Positions 21,078-23,842 of a stretch of DNA of 49,125 nucleotides are shown piece by piece. Origin of the DNA: Methanosarcina sp. MSH10X1 (GTDB lineage: Archaea > Halobacteriota > Methanosarcinia > Methanosarcinales > Methanosarcinaceae); contig NZ_SCHL01000022.1 in NCBI RefSeq assembly GCF_004099695.1, positions 1 to 49,125 on the forward strand. Reading direction: 5' to 3'. A model generated the notes under the pieces. It saw only the letters and a program-made list of their open reading frames with translations, was not told the origin of the DNA and did no database searches. Within the stretch, counting starts at the first letter, position 1. Each line of letters begins with the position of its first letter. A program made the position numbers and the translations under genes.

Positions 21078-21506
21078 TTAAAAATCCTGCTTTGAGCAGG
21101 AACCGGTCTTTAATCTAAGTCTCGAAACATAGGTATACAGGCTTTCTACATCTTTAATTTCTTTCTGAGAGATCAGCCTGAGTTTGTTTCGGATCTCAAG
21201 CTCGGGCTTCAGACCAAAACTCTCGAAATATCCTGAAAGCTTTACAGCCAGCAGGTCGCCCCGTCGGTCCCAGTCAGTTAATATAACTACCTCGCAGCCA
21301 AGCTGGGAAATCCTCTCTGAGAAATTGAAAAGAGAATGCCGGGTTGCAAGTTCAAAATTGCCTTCAATTCCAAGCCTTTTCAGTGAAAGAACATCTCTTT
21401 TTCCTTCAACAATGATAATTGCTCCTCTTAATGAATATTCAGAGAGCTCGGAGAGCAGTTCTTCAATTCTTTCAAGCCTTTTTCTGTAGATTTCAATATC
21501 AGTCAC
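21078..21506 (-). CDS. Small Toprim-domain protein (UPF0292-like)
   Basis: A 142-residue archaeal protein built around a Toprim fold: [26 protein letters not shown] contains the conserved Glu, and [18 protein letters not shown] the DxD pair, with a C-terminal [16 protein letters not shown]. Toprim domains coordinate Mg2+ in primases, topoisomerases and RNase M5-type nucleases, so a nuclease or nucleotidyl-transfer role is likely. GTG 21506 (start [17 protein letters not shown]) matches the family better than GTG 21551, which would add 15 unusual residues; neither has a strong ribosome-binding site. It follows the DUF167 gene on the same strand. Confidence 0.85.
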
Positions 21507-21657
21507 GTTGTCTGCAACCCTGTTATTAATTTGGATTTTAAAGAACTGCACTTTTGGAAAAACTGCAGTTTACCTTTCAGGAGAGGAAAAATTTACTTTT
21601 AAAATCCGGTTCTTACTCAAATCCTTTATTAAAATTCTGGGTACTTAAATTCCTGTT

Positions 21658-21975
21658 TTATTTCTTTAAACGGGCTCCAAAAATTGAAATCGCCTGTTGA
21701 TATGAGACTCCTTTTAACAACAATGATTTCTTACTGTTCGTTGCCCCGCTATTTATAAGAATATCAGAACTGCTAATTCCGAAGAGTTCGGCAAGGCATT
21801 CAACCAACTGCTCGTTTGCCTTTCCTTTCTGGGCATTTTTTGTTAGTTTTACTTCAATTCTTTTGCGCCATTCGTTATAACCGCTCGGAACCGAGACTGA
21901 CCTGGAACCGGGAGTGACTTCGATATCAATAATTATACCAGAACCCAGATCTTTGATTGCCTCTTCAAAAGACAT
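21658..21975 (-). CDS. DUF167/YggU-family protein (UPF0235)
   Basis: The 105-residue protein shows the DUF167 plan: a strand pair IIIDIEVTPGSRSVSVPSGYNEWRKRIEVKLT, the conserved AQKGKANEQLVECLAELFGISSSDILINSGATNSKKSLLLKGV. Family members are small alpha/beta proteins of unknown function conserved in all domains. AAGGT lies eight bases before ATG. It is the first gene of a likely two-gene unit with the Toprim protein 150 bases downstream. Confidence 0.92.
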   Translation of the reverse strand: MSFEEAIKDLGSGIIIDIEVTPGSRSVSVPSGYNEWRKRIEVKLTKNAQKGKANEQLVECLAELFGISSSDILINSGATNSKKSLLLKGVSYQQAISIFGARLKK

Positions 21976-22155: not shown

Positions 22156-22330
22156 TGCTGTAGCCCGGGCGCACTAACTCCGAAAGTTCATCCTCTGGTT
22201 ATCCGCAGTCACTTTCAGTTACCCTCGTGCCGGGCAGTATCACACTATTGATGTACCGCATTGGGGTTGTCTATACACTCACAGTCAGGATTTTCCATTA
22301 TCTCGTGCAAGGACCTATACAATGCGACGA
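22156..22330 (-). ncRNA. Candidate two-hairpin H/ACA guide RNA
   Basis: On the minus strand hairpin 1 begins with a 9-bp lower stem, GTCGCATTG (22328-22320) with CAATGCGGT (22263-22255), counting two G-T wobbles, directly followed by ACA (22254-22252). The 3' guide AACCC lies exactly 14 nt from ACA, the archaeal H/ACA rule, and UGA-rich internal loops fit a kink-turn. Hairpin 2 has GCCCGG/CCGGGC at its base, TAACT/AGTTA and GAAAGT/ACTTTC above, a UGA...GAUGA kink-turn-like loop, and ends C-T-ACA-GCA (ACA 22161-22159). A TATA box sits at the right distance to start the RNA at about 22330. H/ACA RNAs guide uridine to pseudouridine conversion with Cbf5, Nop10, Gar1 and L7Ae. Confidence 0.65.
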
Positions 22331-22352
22331 AGCCATATTATATACATACTAA

Positions 22353-22368
22353 TATATAAAAATATCGG
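22353..22368 (-). promoter_or_regulatory. BRE/TATA promoter for the H/ACA-like RNA
   Basis: Minus-strand CCGATATTTTTATATA gives a BRE followed by TTTATATA (22360-22353). The expected start is 24-28 bases downstream, about 22330, within two or three bases of the first paired base of hairpin 1. There is no reading frame to explain a promoter here. Confidence 0.6.
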
Positions 22369-22659
22369 AGAGCAATAGATTCACTCTACTGCATAAATAA
22401 TTATAAGATACATTTATAGTAAAAACTCATTTCTCTTAAGAAAAAATGATTTCTACTGTAACCGCAATAGATACGGCATGGGAGTACGGAAAGGTGACCT
22501 GGAGAAAATACAGGGCTGATTGCAAAATTACAGAATCTGTTGCTCATTCATTAAAAAGGATTCAAAAATGAAAAAATGCCTCAGTAATCTTATCTTCAAA
22601 AAGACTACATCTTCAAACAAATTGTTTAAATAATAAAATCTGAAGGAAAACTTAAAAAC

Positions 22660-22667: not shown

Positions 22668-22732
22668 TATGTTTATGTTTGCTCTTCCGCAAACTGAGCA
22701 CAGGCATTTAGCGAATACCAGAGGTGCGTATT

Positions 22733-23842
22733 ATGTACGGCACTGAACAGATAATTTCCGGGACAATTATCGCAGGCTCCGAGCTGGAACCTGTCGAAGG
22801 TTATGTATGCATAAAGAGAGGAGTAATTACGGAGGTTGGAGAGGAGCGTACACATTCTACCAACATAATAGCTCCCTGTTTTGTCAATGCTCACACCCAC
22901 CTCGGAGATTCGGTATTCAAGGATCCTCCTCTGGGAAAAGTTTCCGGATATCGGACTCAAAGAGACCTGGATGCACTTGTAAAACCTCCTGATGGATTAA
23001 AGCACAGAATTCTAAGAGAAACGCCATACAAAACCCTGATAGAATGCATGAGAAGGTCTCTACTGGATATGATAGAAACCGGAACTTGTGCCTTTGCGGA
23101 TTTCAGGGAAGGGGGGGTTGTGGGAGTAGCAGCCCTGAATAAAGCTCTTGAAGGACTTAAACTTCATTCCATGGTACTGGGTAGACCTGCTGAGCCTGAA
23201 CTGCCTCTTCAGGTAGTACTGGCTGAAGTAAGAAGAACTCTTCTGCATTCAAATGGACTCGGAATGAGCGGGACGAACGACCTTGATCTCGGACTACTGG
23301 AAAATATTGCTGCCTGCACACGGCAGTATAAAAAATTCTTCGCAATACATGCCGGAGAAAAAGATACTAGCGATATAGAAAAAGCATTATCGCTCAAACC
23401 TGATCTCCTGATTCATTTGACAAATGCTACGAAAAGGGATCTTGAGTACGTGGCTGATGCAAAGATTCCGGTTGTTGTCTGTCCCAGATCTAACCTTATT
23501 ACAGGAGCCGGAATGCCGCCTATTGCCGAGATGCTGGAAACCGGAATAAGAGTTGCGGCAGGCACGGATAATGTAATGTTAAATTCTGTAAATATGTTTG
23601 CTGAAATGGAATTTATGTCAAAGATTTTCTCTATTGATGATAGGCAAGTATTTAAAATTTGCACACTTAATGGTTCTTTTGTAATGGGGCCTGATTCTAC
23701 TGGTTCGATACAAAAGGGGAATAAAGCTAATATCATGATCCTGAATGGAAATTCAAATAATCTTGCAGGGATAAAGAACCCCATAAGTGGAATCACAAGG
23801 CGGGCAAGACCCGATGATATACTATCGGTACTTCATTCGTAA
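22733..23842 (+). CDS. Amidohydrolase-family deaminase (TrzN/SAH-deaminase-like)
   Basis: The 369-residue metal-dependent hydrolase has the metal-binding motif NAHTHLGD, a conserved His in FAIHAGE, another metal His region LIHLTNAT, VVVCPRSN and the late Asp in AAGTDNVMLN; the C-terminal strand is TGSIQKGNKANIMILNG. This is the chlorohydrolase/guanine- and adenosine-deaminase branch of the superfamily. It lacks a clear marker for one substrate; a purine or aminohydrolase role is inferred. ATG 22733 is chosen because GAGGTG lies at 22721-22726. The UspA gene starts 18 bases after its stop, suggesting one operon. Confidence 0.85.
   Translation: MYGTEQIISGTIIAGSELEPVEGYVCIKRGVITEVGEERTHSTNIIAPCFVNAHTHLGDSVFKDPPLGKVSGYRTQRDLDALVKPPDGLKHRILRETPYKTLIECMRRSLLDMIETGTCAFADFREGGVVGVAALNKALEGLKLHSMVLGRPAEPELPLQVVLAEVRRTLLHSNGLGMSGTNDLDLGLLENIAACTRQYKKFFAIHAGEKDTSDIEKALSLKPDLLIHLTNATKRDLEYVADAKIPVVVCPRSNLITGAGMPPIAEMLETGIRVAAGTDNVMLNSVNMFAEMEFMSKIFSIDDRQVFKICTLNGSFVMGPDSTGSIQKGNKANIMILNGNSNNLAGIKNPISGITRRARPDDILSVLHS

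Follow-up and report, generated by a model that had tools for sequence, protein, structure and literature searches.

A probable two-hairpin H/ACA guide RNA gene of the HgcG lineage in Methanosarcina, predicted to target U2586 and helix 69 of 23S rRNA

The window analysed here is the whole 49,125-nt stretch of contig NZ_SCHL01000022.1 from Methanosarcina sp. MSH10X1. It contains an AT-rich gap in which no gene is annotated; the neighbours of the gap are a DUF167 gene (21658–21975, minus strand) and an amidohydrolase gene (22724–23842, plus strand). Within the gap, the minus strand from 22328 to 22159 codes for a probable two-hairpin archaeal H/ACA guide RNA, over which the GC content is ~0.5, compared with ~0.22 on both flanks. 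A putative promoter element, a TATA box with BRE-like purines, ends ~25 nt upstream of hairpin 1; the TATA box is the only feature upstream of the RNA that can still be recognised throughout Methanosarcina. On the strand of the RNA and downstream of it, the interval 21078–21975 holds the DUF167/YggU gene together with a small Toprim-domain gene. Just upstream of the promoter lies an AT-rich hairpin (22408–22467, minus strand), which may be a terminator or nothing; a mir-232 match to the same interval in an Rfam scan of the window was far under the cut-off and was treated as a chance match. A TruB/Cbf5-family gene is present in the genome.

The features of the locus are listed below, where R1 denotes a covariance model derived from 34 relatives and A2 an alignment of 34 sequences.

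22353–22368, minus strand: putative promoter, TATA box with BRE-like purines (CCGATATTTTTATATA), kept across Methanosarcina while the flanks diverge
22159–22328, minus strand: conserved core of the two-hairpin H/ACA guide RNA (putative transcript ends), assigned by R1 score, conservation and covariation
22255–22328, minus strand: hairpin 1, with lower stem 22328–22320/22263–22255 and upper stem 22311–22305/22278–22271, followed by ACA
22312–22315, minus strand: hairpin 1 5′ guide GGUC, pairing with 23S GACC (exact match at own 23S 2608)
22264–22268, minus strand: hairpin 1 3′ guide AACCC, pairing with 23S GGGUU (exact match at own 23S 2608)
22279–22304, minus strand: hairpin 1 K-turn, with GA 22304–22303, closing G-C 22302/22284, bulge UGU 22283–22281 and GA 22280–22279
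22252–22254, minus strand: hairpin 1 ACA box, read directly from the DNA; its first and third A do not vary in A2
22162–22235, minus strand: hairpin 2, with lower stem GCCCGG-CAC/GUG-(CGC bulge)-CCGGGC and upper stem 22218–22211/22187–22180
22219–22226, minus strand: hairpin 2 5′ guide GAGGGUAA, pairing with helix 69 UGACCCUC with one G.A mismatch, for U1915
22175–22179, minus strand: hairpin 2 3′ guide AGUUA, its GUUA pairing with helix 69 UAAC
22188–22210, minus strand: hairpin 2 K-turn, with GA 22210–22209, closing C-G 22208/22193, bulge GAU 22192–22190 and GA 22189–22188
22159–22161, minus strand: terminal ACA box, ACA in all 34 sequences of A2

A sequence-only reading of this DNA had proposed most of this layout, and its coordinates hold: the minus-strand BRE/TATA element, the location in a gap without annotated genes, the 9-bp lower stem of hairpin 1 abutting ACA, the 14-nt distance from pocket to ACA in that hairpin (counted from the start of the 3′ guide at 22268), and the C-T-ACA-GCA end of hairpin 2 are all found. 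The kink-turn-like UGA loops that it described are also present, although they are fuller than was claimed, both apices carrying true K-turn signatures (GA ... NNU-GA). In both hairpins the order of elements is lower helix and GA on the 5′ strand, and upper helix, NNU, GA and lower helix on the 3′ strand. In the 34 sequences, GAG and C..UGA of the hairpin 1 K-turn and GAC and UGA of the hairpin 2 K-turn are invariant.

Published spacing rules for H/ACA RNAs give an ACA distance of 14–16 nt, a GA stem of 8–11 layers and a lower stem of 7–9 bp (PMC4652768). Counted from the sequence, the GA stems have 9 and 10 layers in the two hairpins. The lower stem has 9 bp in hairpin 1 and 6 + 3 bp in hairpin 2, where CAC/GUG extends the 6-bp stem beyond a 3-nt bulge. 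In hairpin 1, ACA lies 16 nt from the C18-G58 pair that closes the upper stem; in hairpin 2 the distance is 18 nt raw and 15 nt when the bulge is left out, so that the 14–16-nt rule requires the bulge to be discounted. CAC/GUG becomes UGC/GCA in five relatives, and some relatives have an unbroken hairpin 2 lower stem of 9–10 bp. Because this replacement places CAC/GUG in the lower stem, the hairpin 2 pocket is GAGGGUAA/AGUUA. The hairpin 1 5′ guide retains GUC in nearly all homologues; in the free fold of hairpin 1 this GUC pairs with GAC, and it must open for target binding. Other boundaries for the upper stems were discarded: with GUC/GAC included in the hairpin 1 upper stem, the resulting 5′ guide UAUAG reaches 3+3 pairs at none of the rRNA sites, and the pairing is lost where GAC becomes GCC, while AAC/GUU in the hairpin 2 upper stem is lost in UUAC variants. 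A few distant relatives have AUA or AAG in place of the terminal ACA.

The RNA is conserved in 51 of 60 relatives in a DNA search, and in other genera the matches run from no more than a few bases away from where hairpin 1 begins to just beyond the terminal ACA. Against R1 the window scores 198 bits, and the model detects the RNA in 80 of the 147 genomes of a phylum-wide sample. A pattern match in Anaerovibrio (L064) was taken as a chance match. Genome G060 has two R1 matches of similar score (C9:181884-182052 and C24:65095-65261), unlike nearly all others, and a second copy of hairpin 2 after an N run in G006 (L025:1813-1898) is probably an assembly artefact. One family, f10 (G063, G072, G086, G104, G108, G113, G133, G138, G143, G148), has weak R1 matches of 86–117 nt, which are possibly single-hairpin forms of the RNA.

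Because the minimum free energy of the whole RNA carries no signal, being no better than that of shuffles (190 nt, z = 0.23), comparison across genomes was needed; folded singly, hairpin 1 gives z = −2.7 and hairpin 2 gives z = −1.6. In A2, 92.4% of pairs are standard and 18 of 35 pairs change on both sides; with the partners slid, the values are 26–43% and 3–7 pairs. A3 is a model-based structural alignment that takes in 32 wide-ranging matches; here 32 of 35 pairs change on both sides and 90.2% of cells are paired, versus 31–44% when slid; the covariation score is 0.579 versus 0.222 for shuffled alignments, and none of 500 shuffles reaches any of five measures. The A2 count is the more independent of the two, since A3 was fitted to R1. 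The hairpin 2 lower stem had been one column off in some rows of the alignment that preceded A3 and is right in A3. Specifically, both-side changes in A3 occur in 8 of 9 pairs of helix 1 (93.5% paired), 6 of 7 pairs of helix 2 (82% paired), and 5 of 6 and 8 of 8 pairs of helices 4 and 5 in hairpin 2. Covariance of both stems, proposed earlier as a check, is therefore strong and far above the shuffled and slid controls.

We scanned the genome's own 23S rRNA (L031) and, since no 16S rRNA was found in the assembly, the 16S rRNA of a close relative (L058). Alignment to the E. coli 23S gene equates own positions 2608, 1947, 1949 and 2518 with E. coli 2586, 1915, 1917 and 2496. The guides AACCC and GGTC had been assigned to U2586, and the hairpin 1 pocket indeed matches own U2608 exactly, with 5+4 bp around the unpaired U-A (GGGUU-UA-GACC), so that the predicted target segment is present in the native 23S rRNA. 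In the geometry of the sequence-only reading, U2608 is the sole site with at least 3+3 pairs among the 885 uridines scanned. Shuffled guides equal its score in 2.1% of cases anywhere and in 0.1% at any of three known archaeal sites. The 2586 target is present in all 29 of the 23S stretches long enough to contain the segment. The equivalent residue 2621 of Haloarcula marismortui is pseudouridine, and a Haloferax guide has been proposed for it (PMC2584109).

The target of hairpin 2, which had been left open, is very probably U1915 in helix 69, judging by complementarity. With the canonical pocket, the top rRNA site is own U1947 (E. coli U1915), which scores 25 against 16 for the next site and pairs as UAAC-UA-UGACCCUC, 4 bp on one side and 7 of 8 on the other, the exception being one G.A mismatch. 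Shuffles reach this score in 0.35% of cases anywhere and in 0.15% at known sites, for a pocket chosen after the lower stems of relatives had been viewed. Of 27 genomes checked, 25 contain the helix 69 target, and the target segments of both hairpins are almost identical throughout the phylum. Guide position 109 is A in Methanosarcinaceae; many lineages have C or U there, bases able to pair with G1950 of the target (own numbering), and in lineage f5 the guide has U and the target A. A two-base slide of the same pocket (UAGU + GAGGGU against ACUA-UG-ACCCUC, 15 nt to ACA) addresses U1917, which is possibly a further target in this alternative register. Together with the covarying stems, K-turns, ACA boxes, spacing and conserved promoter, the target complementarity of both pockets bears out the archaeal H/ACA plan proposed from the sequence. 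Hairpin 2 is strongly rebuilt at loci L158, L161, L162 and L164 (e.g. guides CGCAUGGGUU and CGCAAGGGUU).

An RNA of this lineage is already known, which the sequence-only reading overlooked. In Haloferax, HP1 is predicted to guide Haloarcula 2621 (E. coli 2586) and HP2 to guide 1956 and 1958 (E. coli 1915 and 1917) by alternative pairing; these positions are pseudouridine in Haloarcula marismortui, and HP1 and HP2 have been called homologues of stems II and III of Pf7/Pab40 (Grosjean et al. 2008, PMC2584109). The Methanosarcina RNA, with two hairpins and predicted targets at 2586 and 1915/1917, agrees with Haloferax volcanii HP1/HP2, as known from the published description, in both targets and hairpin numbering. 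Haloarchaea have a long spacer between the hairpins, whereas Methanosarcina has ~16 nt from the first ACA to hairpin 2; GC-rich genomes with longer spacers (L165–L168) match R1. Through HP1/HP2 (PMC2584109), hairpins 1 and 2 correspond to stems II and III of the Thermococcales H/ACA RNA HgcG/Pab40/Pf7, Pab40 being Rfam HgcG, RF00064 (PMC4652768). At its gathering score RF00064 has no match in the window, and its best matches in the same genome lie elsewhere, with E > 2. In four of eight relatives tested (G181, G120, G065 and G049), however, RF00064 matches the loci found by R1 or the DNA search, at the same coordinates; the match in G181 (98 bits) is the sole one of the four over the cut-off. 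This coincidence ties the Methanosarcina RNA to HgcG/Pab40 stems II and III by a chain of homology. A further likeness, drawn from published description, is to Afu-4 of Archaeoglobus fulgidus, which reportedly serves in vitro as the guide for the counterpart of E. coli Ψ1915, the predicted hairpin 2 target (PMC2584109).

Pf7 has three hairpins and the RNA in the window two. In several families a further H/ACA unit, stem I (CGAGGAC-UGAUG...CAUCGG-UGCAAA), stands directly upstream of hairpin 1, with guides that fit CUUGC-UA-CCUCG at E. coli 2496 (own 2518). Stem I precedes the R1 match at L037, L039, L040, L041, L045, L130 and L136, and also at L150, L152–L155, L157 and L159. R2, a model of stem I that is weak in structure (7 pairs), gives significant matches only beside R1 loci and no match among the Methanosarcinaceae searched. 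Read most simply, the ancestral RNA had three hairpins, like Pf7, and one of them was lost in Methanosarcinaceae, in haloarchaea and in some other lineages. From spacing, we infer that P. abyssi site 2588 (PMC6138745) is E. coli 2496. At five loci (L047, L049, L050, L051, L118), a small conserved hairpin with a ACUACGAA or CCUACGAAA loop and stems CCAGA..UCUGG and GUCUGA..UCAGAC stands just upstream of hairpin 1; it may be a vestige of stem I.

We consider it highly probable that the locus encodes an archaeal H/ACA RNA of ~170–180 nt with two hairpins and its own TATA promoter, guiding U2586 and helix 69 U1915 (and possibly U1917 by sliding). From the conservation, covariation, motif geometry and target complementarity observed, transcription, protein binding and modification are predicted as follows. 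An RNA of ~170–180 nt would be transcribed leftward from its TATA promoter; by analogy with known archaeal H/ACA particles, L7Ae would bind each K-turn, and in each hairpin Cbf5-Nop10-Gar1 would bind the lower stem together with its ACA box. The hairpin 1 pocket (GGUC + AACCC) would pair with GGGUU-UA-GACC of 23S rRNA, and Cbf5 would isomerise U2586 in the peptidyl-transferase ring. The hairpin 2 pocket (GAGGGUAA + GUUA) would pair with UAAC-UA-UGACCCUC and position U1915 in the active site, while the two-base slide would position U1917 there instead.

An H/ACA-shaped RNA whose hairpin 2 guides a site other than helix 69 is improbable. The best candidate, at index 1268 of the relative's 16S rRNA (GUAAC-UC-GCCCUCGUG), has 4+9 bp of complementarity, tops a looser scan over 25 geometries that is not significant alone (32% of shuffles), and has the GUUA register in common with U1915. 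Yet it requires 17 nt to ACA, and the guide CAC that it uses is better explained as lower stem by the compensatory UGC/GCA change. In addition, relatives differ in this 16S segment (CCCUCAUG, UCCUCGUG, CCCACAUG) without matching changes in the hairpin 2 guide, whereas the helix 69 target is near-invariant across the phylum. We thus ruled out this 16S target, as the site is not conserved; the scan of both rRNAs, an earlier suggestion, leads with canonical pockets to U2586 for hairpin 1 and U1915 for hairpin 2.

The DUF167 gene lies on the same strand with the RNA ~180 nt upstream of it, as would be expected of a cis-acting leader or regulatory structure of that gene rather than a guide RNA; the presence of two whole H/ACA units, each with a fitting rRNA target, the homology to HgcG loci, and conservation that stops shortly past the terminal ACA make this very unlikely. 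A chance structure or decaying pseudogene would agree with the unremarkable folding energy of the whole RNA, but it is already refuted by covariation, and with guides, K-turns and ACA invariant over the phylum it deserves almost no credence. By sequence comparison, the RNA is a genuine, ancient, unannotated and diverged member of a known lineage.

We judge it about evenly balanced whether the RNA belongs, as a form with two hairpins, to an HgcG-type family that spans the phylum and is far larger than Rfam shows. On that proposal the ancestors had three hairpins, and stem I, with its predicted target 2496, disappeared from Methanosarcinaceae, haloarchaea and other lineages; Ψ2496 would then be absent from those lineages, while 2586 and 1915/1917 were kept and hairpin 2 serves both helix 69 positions by sliding. 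The comparison brings the separate reports on Pab40/HgcG and on Haloferax HP1/HP2 together as one family that can be followed across the phylum; the Rfam model misses much of this family. Helix 69 is the subunit bridge helix, and with the peptide-forming centre it makes up the ribosome's two most important spots. In Methanosarcina, the RNA probably guides the formation of three pseudouridines at functionally central positions of 23S rRNA (2586 in the peptidyl-transferase centre, and 1915 and 1917 in helix 69). Methanosarcina is a genus with workable genetics, and these modifications should therefore be removable by deleting one small locus.
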